Shown: positions 27,005 through 43,990 of the stretch, one piece after another
Layout: every line of letters starts with the position of its first letter
Position numbering within the stretch: position 1 is the stretch's first letter
Source: Acidobacteriota bacterium
GTDB taxonomy: Bacteria; Acidobacteriota; Thermoanaerobaculia; Thermoanaerobaculales; Sulfomarinibacteraceae
DNA length: 61,341 nucleotides
NCBI GenBank assembly: GCA_024641545.1
Contig: JAHECW010000008.1
Span: forward strand, 1-61,341
Direction of reading: 5' to 3'
Made by a program: the position numbers and the translations under genes
Notes under the pieces: generated by a model
The model's input: only the letters and a program-made list of their open reading frames with translations
Databases searched by the model: none
Told to the model about the DNA's origin: nothing

Positions 27005-28708
27005 ATGCTCGAGCGTCTCATCGTTCAAGGACTCGGCATCATCGATACCGTCGAGGTTGAGCTGGCGCCGGGTTTCGTCGCCCTCACCGGCGAAACCGGA
27101 GCGGGTAAATCGTTGCTGGTGACCTCCCTCGAGCTCCTGGCCGGGCGGCGAGCCTCGGCGGAACTCGTCCGCACCGGTGATGATCGCCTCCGCGTCGAAG
27201 GCTGGTTCGGAATCGGCGCCGGATCGGAGATCGAAGCGATCCTCGACGAAATCGGCGCGGCCGACGGCGAGCAACTGGTCATCCGTCGCGAACTGTCGGC
27301 GACGGGGCGCGGCCGGTGCTGGGTCAACGATGTTTCGGTGACCGTCAACAGCCTCCAACGGTTGGCGCCCTTCCTGCTCTCGATCCACGGCCAGCACGAG
27401 CAGCACGGACTCGCGGACGCCGCGGTCCAGCGGCGATTGGTGGACGATGCCGGCGGTCACGACGAACTGCTCGCGGAGGTCAGCGCGCGATTCGACGAGT
27501 GGCGGGATGCGGCCGCTCATCTGGCCGCGCTGGAGGCGGCACGGGCGAGCCGTCGCGACCGCCTCGACGCCATCGCCTTCCAGCTCGCCGAAATCGATGC
27601 GATCGACCCCTGTGACGGCGAACACGAGCAGTTGACGGCCCGGCGGCAGGTCCTGCGCAACGCGGCGCGATTGCAGGAACTCGCGGCCTCGGTCCTCGGC
27701 AGCCTCAGCGACGATGACGGATCGGCGGTCGATCGACTCGCACGCGCCGAGCGCGATCTGGAAGAGATGGTGGCGCACGGTCTGCCCCTCGCCGAGAGCT
27801 CCTCCATCCTGGCTGAAGCACGGATCAACATCGAGGAGATGGTCAGGGAGGTTCGGGCGCTGACCGAGGACGTGGACGACAGCCCCGGCGCACTTGACGG
27901 GGTCGAGAGCAGACTCCACCGCCTCGATCAACTCATGCTCAAATACGGAGAGCCCCTCGGCCGTGTGCTCGAGCACCGTGCGGCCCTGGTGGTGGAGAAT
28001 GCCGAACTCGAAGAGGTCGAGGACCGGCTCGAGACCGCTGCCGCGGCGGCTGCGACCGCCCTCGAGGACTTCGCCGACGCCGCCCGACGGCTCGACGAGG
28101 TTCGGCACGAAGCCGGACTTCGGCTGGCGCGGTCGGTCGAGGGGGTGCTCGCCCGGCTCAACATGGCCGGGACGCATCTGGAATTCCGCTGGCTGGCGCG
28201 AAATGAAGATCACAGTCCACTGCTGCGAGATGGCCGGGGCGTCGTCTTCGACTCCGGCGGCGTCGAGGAGTGCGAGCTGCTGATCGCCGCCAACCCCGGC
28301 GAGGAGCCGCGGCCCATGGCCCGCATCGCATCGGGCGGAGAGCTCTCGAGAATTCACCTCGCCATCCGGACAGTGCTTCGGTCGGCGCGTCCCGGGGGCG
28401 CCATGACCCTGCTCTTCGACGAGGTCGACTCCGGTCTCGGCGGCGCGACGGCGGCAGCCCTCGCAGGTCTTCTCGCCGATCTCGCCGGTACCGACCAGGT
28501 CCTGGCCGTCACCCATCTTCCGCAGGTCGCGGCAGCGGCCGACAGCCATTTCAAGATCGAGAAGCACCAGCTCAATGAGCGCGCGGTGACCCGCGTCTTC
28601 GCCCTCGAGGGAGAGGACCGCGAGACCGAGCTGGCGCGGATGTTGGCCGGGGACAAGATCGGTGCGTCGGCGCGCGCCCACGCTCGAACGCTGCTGGGAG
28701 ACCGATGA
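27005..28708 (+). CDS. recN: DNA repair protein RecN
   Basis: SMC-like ATPase in double-strand break repair. Walker A is GETGAGKS (residues 29-36), with the RecN start MLERLIVQGLGIID. INGQHE-type block LSIHGQHEQHGLAD. A long coiled coil covers about 170-420. Signature ASGGELSRIHLAIR, Walker B TLLFDEVDSGLGG, then VLAVTHLPQVAAAADSHFKI. 567 aa, normal. It overlaps tsaC by 4 bp. The upstream in-frame extension is antisense to the cupin gene and is rejected. Confidence 0.97.
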   Translation: MLERLIVQGLGIIDTVEVELAPGFVALTGETGAGKSLLVTSLELLAGRRASAELVRTGDDRLRVEGWFGIGAGSEIEAILDEIGAADGEQLVIRRELSATGRGRCWVNDVSVTVNSLQRLAPFLLSIHGQHEQHGLADAAVQRRLVDDAGGHDELLAEVSARFDEWRDAAAHLAALEAARASRRDRLDAIAFQLAEIDAIDPCDGEHEQLTARRQVLRNAARLQELAASVLGSLSDDDGSAVDRLARAERDLEEMVAHGLPLAESSSILAEARINIEEMVREVRALTEDVDDSPGALDGVESRLHRLDQLMLKYGEPLGRVLEHRAALVVENAELEEVEDRLETAAAAAATALEDFADAARRLDEVRHEAGLRLARSVEGVLARLNMAGTHLEFRWLARNEDHSPLLRDGRGVVFDSGGVEECELLIAANPGEEPRPMARIASGGELSRIHLAIRTVLRSARPGGAMTLLFDEVDSGLGGATAAALAGLLADLAGTDQVLAVTHLPQVAAAADSHFKIEKHQLNERAVTRVFALEGEDRETELARMLAGDKIGASARAHARTLLGDR

Positions 28709-29337
28709 TCCGTCTGCCTTTTTCCGATGCGGACGAGATCAGAAACGCCCTGAGCCAGGCCGCAGAGGTGATCGCCGCGGGCGGAGTGGTGCTGATTCCC
28801 ACCGAGAGCCACTACGGTTTGGCGGTCGATCCCCGGCGCCGGGCGGCCGTCGAGAAGGTCTTTGTGCTCAAGGACCGCCCGGACGGTCTCGCTCTCCCCG
28901 TGGTCTGTTCCGACTGGCAACAGGTGGATGCGCTGGTCAGCCTTCCCGATGTCCACCGTTTCAAGCTGGCCCGGATCTGGCCCGCCGCTCTGACGGTGGT
29001 GGCGCCCTGCCGGCGAAGAATCGCGGCATCATCGACCGACACCCTCGCGGTCCGGATTCCCGACCACGACGGATTGCGGGCGCTCCTCTATCGGGTCGGC
29101 CCGCTCACCGCGACATCCGCCAATCGCCACGGCGAGCCGCCGTGCCCGACGGTGGCAACCGCGCTCGCTTCGTTGCTCGGCGCCCCCGAACTCGTCCTCG
29201 ACGCCGGGGATCTGGCCGGGGGACCGGTCAGCACCTTGATCGATCTGAGTTCTGCCGAGGCGCGGGAAATCCGATCCGGCCCGGTGCTCTGGGATGAGCC
29301 GTTCGACCTCGAGAGCTGGGTCCTCCAGGACGGGTGA
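28705..29337 (+). CDS. tsaC: Threonylcarbamoyl-AMP synthase (YrdC/Sua5 family)
   Basis: Makes threonylcarbamoyl-AMP for the t6A37 tRNA modification. The YrdC fold signatures are GGVVLIPTESHYGLAVDPR, VFVLKDRPDGLALPVVCSD and WPAALTVVAPC, with GPLTATSANRHGEPPCPTV as the ATP-binding SxN block. 210 aa, so the short TsaC form without the Sua5 C-terminal domain. ATG overlaps the recN stop (ATGA). Confidence 0.94.
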   Translation: MIRLPFSDADEIRNALSQAAEVIAAGGVVLIPTESHYGLAVDPRRRAAVEKVFVLKDRPDGLALPVVCSDWQQVDALVSLPDVHRFKLARIWPAALTVVAPCRRRIAASSTDTLAVRIPDHDGLRALLYRVGPLTATSANRHGEPPCPTVATALASLLGAPELVLDAGDLAGGPVSTLIDLSSAEAREIRSGPVLWDEPFDLESWVLQDG

Positions 29338-29389
29338 TTCGGGCCCCCGGGGCACCGCTTCCGAAGCCCATTCGCCTCGCGTACACCCA

Positions 29390-29530
29390 TGTGGAAAACC
29401 CTGTGGAAAACCCTGTGGAAAAGCAGTTAAGCTAATGTAAACACAAGCACTTCGACGTTTCGCCGCATTTTTTGTGCTTTGGATGTAAGTTGTTTTTTAT
29501 CAGCAATTTAAACTTATCTCATTGAGTCCT
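29390..29530. promoter_or_regulatory. DnaA-box-like triplet with adjacent AT-rich tract (origin-like element)
   Basis: Three TGTGGAAAA sites start at 29390, 29402 and 29414, exactly 12 bp apart and all in one orientation. Reverse-complemented they read TTTTCCACA, which fits the relaxed DnaA box TTWTNCACA. About 100 bp of unusually AT-rich DNA follows (29423-29530), including T-runs and two TTATC motifs. The gap 29338-29685 contains no gene. No dnaA or dnaN is in the window, so a regulatory or titration role is as likely as an origin. Confidence 0.5.
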
Positions 29531-29685
29531 CGATTGTTGCCTGACGTCGTTTTCGGCCTGAGGTCCACAACCCGCACATTTCCGGTATCTTGCGTGAGGT
29601 GATCCGGGAGCTGACGTTGCTGGGTTCAACGACCCTGTGGTAGCGTGCCCACTCCGCTCGTTCGGAAGGCGGTTGGAGGACCCCA

Positions 29686-30243
29686 ATGTCGATTCAAACA
29701 GTCTCCGGACTGACCCCGAGCATCGGTCGGCGAGTCTTGATCGCCGCCAATGCGGTGGTGGTTGGAGATGTTTCCCTCGGCGATGACGTATCGGTCTGGT
29801 ACAACGTGGTGATCCGTGGCGATATCCACTGGATCCGGATCGGGGCGCGATCGAATCTTCAGGACGGTGTCATCATTCACGTCGAACGTGGTCTCTACCC
29901 GACCCTCCTGGAAGAGGAGGTGAGCGTCGGACACGGGGCGATGCTCCACGGTTGCACGGTGGGTGCGGGAAGTCTGATCGGGATGGGGGCGATGGTGCTC
30001 AACAACGCCGTCATCGGTGAAGGTTCGCTGGTGGCCGCCGGAGCGGTGGTTCGTGAGGGTTTCATCGTGCCGCCGCGCAGCCTCGTGGCCGGCGTGCCCG
30101 CGGTGGTCAAGCGCCCGCTCACCGATGTCGAAGCAGATCGCGCCCGACGGACCGCGAGCAACTATGTCGAGTACAAGAACAGCTATCTGGAGCAGGGCCT
30201 CGGGAGGCCCCGGTCCGGATCGGAAGAAGAGGACGATTCATGA
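29686..30243 (+). CDS. Gamma-class carbonic anhydrase-family protein
   Basis: 185-aa left-handed beta-helix protein built of hexapeptide repeats. The putative metal ligands His65 (IIHVERG), His83 and His88 (GHGAMLHG) are all present, as in Cam/CaiE/YrdA-type trimers. Some relatives are active carbonic anhydrases and others have no proven activity. The ATG has GGAGG upstream. It overlaps the hisS start by 4 bp (ATGA), a housekeeping unit of unclear logic. Confidence 0.92.
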   Translation: MSIQTVSGLTPSIGRRVLIAANAVVVGDVSLGDDVSVWYNVVIRGDIHWIRIGARSNLQDGVIIHVERGLYPTLLEEEVSVGHGAMLHGCTVGAGSLIGMGAMVLNNAVIGEGSLVAAGAVVREGFIVPPRSLVAGVPAVVKRPLTDVEADRARRTASNYVEYKNSYLEQGLGRPRSGSEEEDDS

Positions 30244-31505
30244 TCCGCAAGGTCAAGGGCACCCGTGACATCCTGCCGCCGGAAACAACGCTGTGGAACG
30301 ACGTTGAACGTACCGCGCTGCGGATCTTCGGGGGCTTTGGCTACTCCGAGATCCGGCTGCCTCTGCTCGAGCCCACCGAGCTCTTCGTGCGCACGGTCGG
30401 CGAGGGCACCGACATCGTGTCCAAGGAGATGTACACCTTTGCCGATCGCAAGGGCCGATCGCTGACCCTGCGGCCCGAGGGCACCGCAAGTGTGGCCAGG
30501 GCGTTTATCGAGAACGGTCTCGGCCAGCGGCCGCAGCCCCTGAGGTTGAGCTACTTCGGTCCGATGTTTCGCTACGAGAAGGCCCAACGCGGTCGGTATC
30601 GACAGTTTTCCCAGATCGGCATCGAGCTGCTCGGCGCCGCGACGCCGGCCGCCGATGTCGAGGTCATCGTTGCGCTCCACACTTTCCTGGCCGAGCTCGG
30701 ATTCGACGACCTCATCATCGCGCTCAACAATCTCGGCGACCCCGAGGATCGCGAGAGGTTCATCGCGGGCCTCAAGACCGAGCTGACGCCGCACCGCGAT
30801 GAGCTCTGCGGCGACTGTCAGCGCCGGTGGGAGGAAAACCCGCTGCGAATCCTCGACTGCAAGGTCCAGCGCTGCCGCGAACTGGTTGCCGAGACGACTC
30901 CGGTGGCGGATGTGGTGAGTGAGGACGCGGCACGGCACGTCGCCGCCGTCGAGGCGGGTCTGCAGGAGGCGTCGATTCCGGTACGACGGGCGCCCCGGCT
31001 GGTGCGCGGGCTCGACTACTACCTGCGGACCGTTTTCGAGGTCATCTCGCCCGAGCTCGGCGAGGACACCGTGATCTGCGGCGGCGGCCGCTATGACCGC
31101 TTGATCTCGGATCTCGGCGGTGCGGCGGTGCCCGGGGTCGGTTTTGCCATCGGCGAGGACCGGCTCGTCGATGTCCTGCCGCAGAGCTTCAAAGATCGAG
31201 CCCTCGAACAGAGGATCGTGGCCGTGCTGCCGGTTGGTGGTGCGGCGGCGGCTCAAGCGACCAGCCTGGCGCGCGATCTGGTGCTCTCCGGCGTGACGGC
31301 CCACACCGAGGTCACCGGGCGGTCGCTCAAGGCGTGCCTCAAGTGGGCCACCAAGATGGCCGCATCGGTGGCTGTGATCCTCGGCGAGAGCGAACGTGCC
31401 GATGGGGTTGCCCTGATCCGCGACCTCGATCGGGGCGAACAGGAAACGGTGGCCCTCGGCGATGTGGTCGCGCGCGTCGCCGAGCTGCTTCAAGCCCGAC
31501 GATAG
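30240..31505 (+). CDS. hisS: Histidine--tRNA ligase
   Basis: Class II synthetase. The start is VKGTRDILPPE. Motif 1 is around FGYSEIRLPLLEPTELF, motif 2 is FRYEKAQRGRYRQFSQIG, the HisA block is RGLDYYLRTVFEV, and motif 3 GVGFAIGEDRL. The C-terminal anticodon-binding domain starts near residue 325 (IVAVLPVGG). 421 aa. Coupled to the carbonic anhydrase gene upstream and followed closely by aspS. Confidence 0.97.
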   Translation: MIRKVKGTRDILPPETTLWNDVERTALRIFGGFGYSEIRLPLLEPTELFVRTVGEGTDIVSKEMYTFADRKGRSLTLRPEGTASVARAFIENGLGQRPQPLRLSYFGPMFRYEKAQRGRYRQFSQIGIELLGAATPAADVEVIVALHTFLAELGFDDLIIALNNLGDPEDRERFIAGLKTELTPHRDELCGDCQRRWEENPLRILDCKVQRCRELVAETTPVADVVSEDAARHVAAVEAGLQEASIPVRRAPRLVRGLDYYLRTVFEVISPELGEDTVICGGGRYDRLISDLGGAAVPGVGFAIGEDRLVDVLPQSFKDRALEQRIVAVLPVGGAAAAQATSLARDLVLSGVTAHTEVTGRSLKACLKWATKMAASVAVILGESERADGVALIRDLDRGEQETVALGDVVARVAELLQARR

Positions 31506-42415: not shown

Positions 42416-43990
42416 GTGGGCTTACCATTGATAGCGGCGCTCTGTGTGCTGCTGGTCGCGATCCTCGGAATGGTTTTGGTCTGGGTGCTGTGGCGGCGTT
42501 CGCGGAGCGCGGCACTCGGACTGGTGGCCAATGCCGAGAAGCAGGCCCGAAAGGTCCTTGCACGGGCGGAAATCGACGGCGAACGCCTGCGCAGGGACGT
42601 CGAGATCGAAGCTCGCGAGCGATTGCTCGTGGCACGCACCGAGTTTGAACGGGAGACCCGCGACCAGCGGCTCGAATTGCTCGGACTCGAGGCGAATCTG
42701 GGAGAAAAAGAGACCGAAGTCGAGCGGCGGATATCGCAGACCGTCGAGCGCGAGCAGGCGGTTGCGAGGCTCGAAGCCGAGCTTCGTGAACAGGAAAAAA
42801 CCCTCGGCACGCGCGGTGAGGAGCTCGAAGCCGCTCTTGCGGAGGAACGGATCAAGCTCGAGCAGATCGCCGGATTGACGACCGATCAGGCAAAACATGA
42901 GCTTCTGAAGTCGTTGGAGAACGAGGCGCGGATGGACGCCGCCAATCTGGTCCGCAAGATCGAGGAGGAATCGGCTGAGAAGGCCAAGGAGAGGGCCCGG
43001 CGGGTGATCTCCATGGCGATCCAGCGGATCGCCTCCGAGCACGTGGTCGAGAGCACCGTCTCGGTGGTTGACCTCCCGTCGGATGAGATGAAGGGTCGGA
43101 TCATCGGTCGCGAGGGTCGGAACATCCGCGCCTTCGAGCAGGCGACGGGTGTGGATCTCATCGTCGACGACACCCCGGAAGCGGTGATTCTGTCGTGTTT
43201 CGAGCCGGTGCGGCGCGAGATCGCGCGGCGAACCCTGGAGAACCTGATTCAGGACGGTCGGATTCACCCCGGTCGAATCGAGGAACTGGTCGGCAAGGTC
43301 CAGGCGGAGATGGACGAGAAGCTCCTCGCCGATGGCGAGGCTGCAGCGCTGGAGGTCGGGATTCCCGACATCCACCCCGAGATTCACAAGCTCATCGGTC
43401 GGCTTCAGTTCCGTTCCTCCTACGGCCAGAACGCGCTCAAGCACTCCATGGAGGTGGCATGGCTCGCCAACCACATGGCGGCCGAGCTCGGCGCCAACGC
43501 GGAGATCGCGAAGCGCGCCGGTCTGGTCCACGACATCGGCAAGGCGGTCGATCGGGAAATGGACGGCACCCATCTCGAGCTCGGTCGCGAGATGCTCAGG
43601 AAATTCGGCGAGACCGACGAGGTGATCCACGCCATGGAGTGCCACCACGGCGACTATGACCCGCACACGGTCGAGGCGGTCCTGGTCACGGCGGCGGACG
43701 CACTCTCGGCAGCGCGGCCCGGCGCCCGACGCGAGATCCTCGAAAACTACATCAAGCGACTCGAAAAGCTCGAGGGCATGGCCTCCGATTTCGAGGGTGT
43801 GGAAAAGGTCTATGCCATCCAGGCGGGCCGCGAGCTGAGGATCATCGTCGAGTCCGCGACCATCAGTGACGACAAGGCGGTGTGGCTCGCTCGCGATGTC
43901 GCCAAGAAGGTCGAAGCCGAGCTGACGTATCCCGGTCAGATCAAGGTGACGGTGATCCGCGAGACCCGCGCCGTCGAGTACGCGCGGTGA
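42416..43990 (+). CDS. rny: Ribonuclease Y
   Basis: Membrane-anchored endoribonuclease that starts mRNA decay. N-terminal transmembrane helix (about 3-26), long coiled coil to about residue 205, KH domain (MKGRIIGREGRNIRAFEQATG) and HD domain (HSMEVAWLANHMAAELG, AGLVHDIGKAVD). 524 aa from GTG 42416, which has AGGGGGTGG upstream. A TTG at 42395 is the alternative. Followed after 4 bp by the metallophosphatase gene, the standard rny-ymdB pair. Confidence 0.96.
   Translation: MGLPLIAALCVLLVAILGMVLVWVLWRRSRSAALGLVANAEKQARKVLARAEIDGERLRRDVEIEARERLLVARTEFERETRDQRLELLGLEANLGEKETEVERRISQTVEREQAVARLEAELREQEKTLGTRGEELEAALAEERIKLEQIAGLTTDQAKHELLKSLENEARMDAANLVRKIEEESAEKAKERARRVISMAIQRIASEHVVESTVSVVDLPSDEMKGRIIGREGRNIRAFEQATGVDLIVDDTPEAVILSCFEPVRREIARRTLENLIQDGRIHPGRIEELVGKVQAEMDEKLLADGEAAALEVGIPDIHPEIHKLIGRLQFRSSYGQNALKHSMEVAWLANHMAAELGANAEIAKRAGLVHDIGKAVDREMDGTHLELGREMLRKFGETDEVIHAMECHHGDYDPHTVEAVLVTAADALSAARPGARREILENYIKRLEKLEGMASDFEGVEKVYAIQAGRELRIIVESATISDDKAVWLARDVAKKVEAELTYPGQIKVTVIRETRAVEYAR

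Follow-up and report, generated by a model that had tools for sequence, protein, structure and literature searches.

A conserved non-origin DnaA-box element in Acidobacteriota as a candidate site of the DARS/datA kind

The three DnaA boxes described here are probably the box array of a conserved site, lying away from the replication origin, that regulates DnaA and is of the same kind as the DARS and datA sites of E. coli. They were found in a stretch of 61,341 nucleotides (the window) of an Acidobacteriota genome, a metagenome-type assembly of 310 contigs and 5.38 Mb in which no 16S rRNA was found. The array is part of a non-coding element of about 190-200 bp, which appears to be kept for its sites and their spacing throughout the class and to be recognisable across the phylum. 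The sequence of the element, its spacing, its conservation and its non-origin position can be read directly from the genomes.

We suggest that several DnaA molecules would assemble on the array and on a distal inverted box, that a bend at an IHF-like site would bring these together into a looped complex, and that this complex would alter the nucleotide state or the availability of DnaA and in that way tune the firing of a distant oriC; binding by DnaA and IHF and the effect on replication timing are what we infer from the sites. The likeliest ancestral role is of the DARS type, that is release of ADP from DnaA, because the fuller form of the element has the core geometry of E. coli DARS. The copy in the window looks like a derived version which, having lost box I and having a third direct box, may act more like datA, by ATP hydrolysis or titration with head-to-tail DnaA and an IHF loop, and for this copy a DARS-type role is only a little more plausible than titration or inactivation of the datA kind. 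Counting against a reading of the DARS/datA kind are the missing box I in the window's family and the weakness of the IHF-like motif in individual sequences. The fullest version of our proposal can be put forward tentatively: an ancient element of the DARS type, in which the E. coli core is joined by a second head-to-head pair and a looped distal box, conserved in this phylum far from the Gammaproteobacteria, with the head-to-head box replaced by a third direct box in the window's family.

The box array and its flank in the window

An earlier note on this DNA had pointed to three DnaA-box-like sites beside an AT-rich tract, and both observations hold. TGTGGAAAA is present at 29390, 29402 and 29414, in one orientation and with an exact 12-bp spacing, and the tract that follows has a lower GC content than any other 108-bp stretch of the window (Table 1). 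The extent of 29390-29530 given in that note covers the boxes and the tract but is too short, as the conserved element continues to about 29571. There are four matches to TTWTNCACA in the window against 0.35 expected, and none of 100 shuffles reached four. The array is the sole occurrence of TGTGGAAAA-N(1-6)-TGTGGAAAA in the 5,383,841-bp genome, with none for the reversed control. A fourth TTTTCCACA in the window, at 43798-43806, is isolated and has no array.

The DnaA box TTWTNCACA leaves freedom at N and W only, and the window boxes conform to it. In the core-pattern hits of the phylum position 5 of box II is C in 0.52, G in 0.34, T in 0.10 and A in 0.03 of cases and is the sole freely varying position, while position 3 is T or A, as TTWTNCACA predicts. 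With the boxes conserved, the N position alone free and the architecture fixed, the identification as DnaA boxes is well supported.

Box III has 7-8 of 8 matches in all 19 elements of the window's family (f1). Box IV has a mean score of 7.47/8 in f1, against 4.8/8 in the rest of the class and 3.2/8 in the phylum outside the class. At the position expected for box I the window's genome has 1 of 8 matches and the family mean of 1.84/8 is background, with 6.2/8 in family f2.

Table 1. Positions of the element, its parts and the neighbouring genes in the window
Feature	Position	Strand	Remarks
sua5/yrdC-like gene	28705..29337	+	Sua5_yciO_yrdC, PF01300
Box I, expected position	29376..29384	+	would face box II head-to-head across 5 nt; the sequence is degenerate and not a box
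Whole element	29388..29571	+	matched by model R1 at E=1.4e-31, with this copy among the sequences used to build the model
DnaA box II	29390..29398	-	TTTTCCACA; register from comparison with f2, class and phylum elements
DnaA box III	29402..29410	-	TTTTCCACA; spacer to box II 3 nt
DnaA box IV	29414..29422	-	TTTTCCACA; additional direct box, kept in the window's family
AT-rich tract	29423..29530		36% GC, lowest 108-bp stretch of the window (window 65%)
GTTAAGC-ATGTAAA-ACACAAGCACTTC block	29426..29453		CAR-N4-TT motif, weak IHF-like core; from alignments of 31 elements and of the family
GCATTTTTTGTGC	29465..29477		probable remnant of the TTGCACA-N5/6-TGTGCAA box pair, at the expected offset
TATCAGCAATTTA	29498..29510	+	exact match to IHF consensus WATCARNNNNTTR
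Distal inverted DnaA-type box	29561..29569	+	AGGTCCACA; 150 bp from box IV
Predicted promoter-like TTGCTG-N18-TAGCGT	29617..29646	+	upstream of gCA/hisS; conserved in family alignment
Hexapeptide-repeat protein (Hexapep), gCA	29686..30243	+	gamma-carbonic-anhydrase subtype name is inferred
hisS, histidyl-tRNA synthetase	30240..31505	+

Beyond the array the element has two further parts before the distal box. A head-to-head box pair, TTGCACA-N5/6-TGTGCAA, is found intact 84-85 bp from box I in most class elements and many phylum elements; in the window's genome the score of the remnant GCATTTTTTGTGC as a box pair is not above that of shuffles (p=0.2). Measured from the box I position, the best IHF-like match falls at an offset of 119-124 in 14 of 22 class elements and 13 of 19 family elements, so that the motif is conserved in position, yet it is weak in most single sequences. 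The genome has four HU/IHF-family (PF00216) genes, two of them closest to IHF models and all of them below the IHF equivalog cut-offs. The promoter-like sequence sits beyond the DnaA element.

The element in relatives, class and phylum

A pair-pattern search of 60 relatives, in which spacers of 2-6 nt were allowed, found the array in 13, always with a spacer of 3 nt. In the family and order nearly all of the elements are between sua5 (upstream) and (gCA-)hisS (downstream), and their alignment is almost free of gaps. It ends in TCCACA in the inverted orientation, 146-151 bp away from the last direct box. This distal inverted box is present at 146-151 bp in 37 elements, from two families plus genome G038. 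The 37 were searched within a spacing of 144-153 bp and the tightness is thus partly due to selection, but the distance is supported independently by the ungapped alignments.

In the window's family box I is at background (1.8/8) and the box pair is eroded, while the third direct box is conserved (7.5/8). It seems that box I was lost in this family, where a third direct box was acquired, and this is why the earlier note saw three direct boxes. In relatives of genus g12 (L071, L078, L119) the element is present as a complete tandem pair within about 610 bp, and its two copies have diverged. A member of another family (G073, L236) has two elements about 490 bp apart in what looks like an independent duplication.

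For the class we used a model, R1, made by sequence only from 31 elements of the order plus that of G038. At E<=0.01, with E-values per genome and about 1.5 matches to be expected from chance alone, it matches 138 of 149 class genomes, a count in which related sequences are not independent, and about 7% of the 149 genomes searched have no match. Many of the matches have E<1e-8 and are in families absent from model building. There are usually one or two matches in a genome, and 2-4 in some large genomes, which suits titration as well as DARS. The matches in family f8 are weak, and that in G126 (E about 3e-7) is without the distal box and the box pair. Most of 22 elements from outside the order have the arrangement TTCCACAG-N4-TGTGGAAAA-N3-TGTGGAAAA followed by TTGCACA-N6-TGTGCAA, and after this box pair TAAG, an IHF-like ATCARNNNNTTA and TTTTCCACA.

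In the phylum the DARS-type core pattern, with up to 3 mismatches, is present in 84 of 396 genomes, with none for the reversed control. Of 29 core-pattern hits elsewhere in the phylum, most have a sequence like TTGCACA, for which they had not been selected, at +83 to +85 relative to box I. One core hit (L313) is without the TTGCACA-like sequence and adjoins dnaA. A stricter pattern of box III plus the box pair gave 22 places in 19 of the 396 genomes and none in the control. Four of these places, all in G059 and near contig ends (contigs C68, C76, C83 and C137; L327 and L333-L335), have near-identical TGTGGAAAACG...TGCAC, and are probably another kind of repeat that happens to fit the pattern.

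The gene contexts in class and phylum include sua5-hisS, gcvT, epimerase, thymidine kinase, histidine kinase, Ppx/GppA, Ham1-family, OMP decarboxylase and cstA genes. The neighbours are often convergent with the element and its internal architecture is fixed throughout. Given such diverse and often convergent neighbours the element is not the promoter of one gene. At three places elsewhere in the phylum (L285, L291 and L293) it is beside a prolyl-oligopeptidase-family gene, and in L285 and L291 there is a GyrI-like gene on its other side.

Position relative to the origin, and other readings

The main idea of the earlier note was that the site is an unlinked oriC, which a sign change in GC skew would support and a skew switch next to dnaA with a better box cluster would refute. 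It is correct that dnaA and dnaN are not nearby: both are on contig C180, which carries dnaA, dnaN, recF, gyrB and gyrA. However the skew is positive across the whole window, where the plus strand has an excess of G both before and after the site, and the change of sign is at dnaA-dnaN on C180. Nor does the skew flip at the element in the five relatives G001, G007, G021, G022 and G038, and in the first four of these the element is on the G-rich strand. In G126, a class member in a single contig for which there are twenty skew samples, the switch is at dnaA (2.73 Mb) and the element match is 1.75 Mb from dnaA, a distance that rests on a weak and partial match. The dnaA-dnaN gap on C180 has its own cluster of TGTGGA/TCCACA boxes, which most relatives also have, together with an CTCGACGATGATGAT-like tract. 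That gap (L037:10443-10679) contains TTTTCCACA and three TGTGGA boxes 10-11 bp apart and then GATGATGATCTACTATGC, which resembles a DnaA-trio tract and is conserved in most relatives; it is likely to be the true oriC. What an unlinked origin has in its favour is the AT-rich tract that adjoins the boxes, and AT-rich DNA beside a box array does not alone make an origin. With no skew flip at the site, and with the skew switch and a separate conserved box cluster at dnaA-dnaN, the origin reading fails, and we regard it as almost certainly wrong.

The earlier note made two other suggestions. A datA-like site, at which the boxes would collect DnaA and IHF would bend the DNA such that ATP hydrolysis or titration represses initiation, agrees with the head-to-tail boxes of the window, the absence of box I, an IHF-like motif placed between the direct boxes and the distal one, and the fact that some large genomes have several copies; minimal datA likewise has boxes with one IHF site between them (PMC5742627). 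However a head-to-head core of DARS type is kept in most of the class, and datA of E. coli is near oriC whereas the (weak) match in G126 is 1.75 Mb from dnaA. As an account of the element as a whole we think datA-like function unlikely. The suggestion came close, and missed the DARS core, the IHF-like motif, the distal box and the class-wide conservation.

The other suggestion, a DnaA-controlled promoter, would make the element a control region of the (gCA-)hisS operon, with DnaA and a bending protein acting on a promoter at about 29617-29646. In the family and order the element does stay upstream of gCA/hisS; in G022 it has moved together with gCA-hisS, it persists where gCA has been lost, and a promoter-like motif follows it, all of which leaves such control possible in the window's family. 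It fails for the same architecture beside unrelated genes elsewhere in class and phylum, where the downstream gene is often convergent. In families f7 and f9 the element follows sua5, and in G038 it is at a different locus, on another contig than hisS. A hisS-specific regulator is rejected as the element is beside many other genes, and the control-region reading in general is improbable.

The fixed length, the terminal TGTGGAAAA/TTTTCCACA, the tandem duplication in genus g12 and the 2-4 copies in some genomes would also fit a mobile or selfish (MITE-like) repeat or a structured RNA gene. In most of two families, however, one syntenic place holds a single copy of the element, and changes in one half of the box pair are not compensated in the other (TTGAACA...TGTGCAA), as they would be in an RNA stem. 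An Rfam search gave no match above chance and a structured RNA is rejected on these grounds, with the repeat or RNA reading taken together being very unlikely. We also reject an intrinsic terminator downstream of sua5, since the inverted repeat of boxes I and II has on the plus strand T before the stem and A after it, which is the wrong way round.

Comparison with known DnaA sites

Most descriptions of sites of the DARS and datA kind concern E. coli and related bacteria, and to our knowledge it is only in E. coli that control of the nucleotide state of DnaA by chromosomal sites is known in detail. DARS (DnaA-reactivating sequence) stimulates the release of ADP from DnaA and its deletion delays initiation. 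Box I is needed for the head-to-head DnaA contact, and there is a flanking regulatory region with IHF sites, plus Fis for DARS2. In contrast datA, with IHF, promotes hydrolysis of DnaA-ATP (DDAH).

In the MG1655 sequence DARS1 is TTATCCACT-ATTCC-TGTGGATAA-CCA-TGTGTATTA and DARS2 is TTATCCCAG-CTTTC-TGTGGATAA-CAT-GGTGTAAGA. The published account agrees with this reading: in both, box I runs against the orientation of the other two boxes, and the spacing is equal (PMC5742627). The fuller form of our element, that of most of the class and of the core-pattern hits elsewhere in the phylum, has the same order, in which a forward box I is separated by 5 nt from box II and box II by 3 nt from box III, the last two being reverse. 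The class set used in box scoring was registered partly on box I and its box I score is thus biased upward, but box I played no part in the registration of f2, and there a forward box exactly at -14 from box II scores 6.2/8 against a background of 1.8. The three-box core is thus present in f2, whereas the window copy has boxes II and III, 1/8 at box I, and a third direct box. The element is also like DARS in being intergenic and away from oriC, and may be like DARS2 in its flank, where a putative regulatory stretch holds an IHF-like motif that is weak in most individual elements. It differs in its gene context, which in E. coli is bioD-uvrB and next to mutH, and in its TTGCACA-type pair (+84/85) and distal box (about +184-200), for which we found no counterpart in DARS1/2.

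According to PMC4245941 the DARS2 core is specific to those gamma-proteobacteria that are related to E. coli, and in a literature search that was not exhaustive we found no paper on such an element outside the Gammaproteobacteria. A class-wide element with DARS core geometry in other bacteria suggests that this type of site is either far older or was invented twice. It also offers a defined DNA of ~200 bp for in vitro study of DARS-like control beyond the relatives of E. coli.

Minimal datA, of 262 bp and close to oriC, has DnaA boxes with one IHF site between (PMC5742627). By sequence, boxes on either side of a putative IHF-type site are present off-origin at 29390-29569, and the two are alike in this, in being non-origin sites and in being non-coding; they differ in the order and orientation of the boxes. 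B. subtilis and Streptomyces also have non-origin clusters of DnaA boxes, thought to restrain initiation (PMC5742627, PMC4585315), and B. subtilis is without IHF, datA and DARS (PMC13220808). These clusters resemble our element in being non-origin DnaA boxes, with no such fixed architecture described for them in the literature searched.
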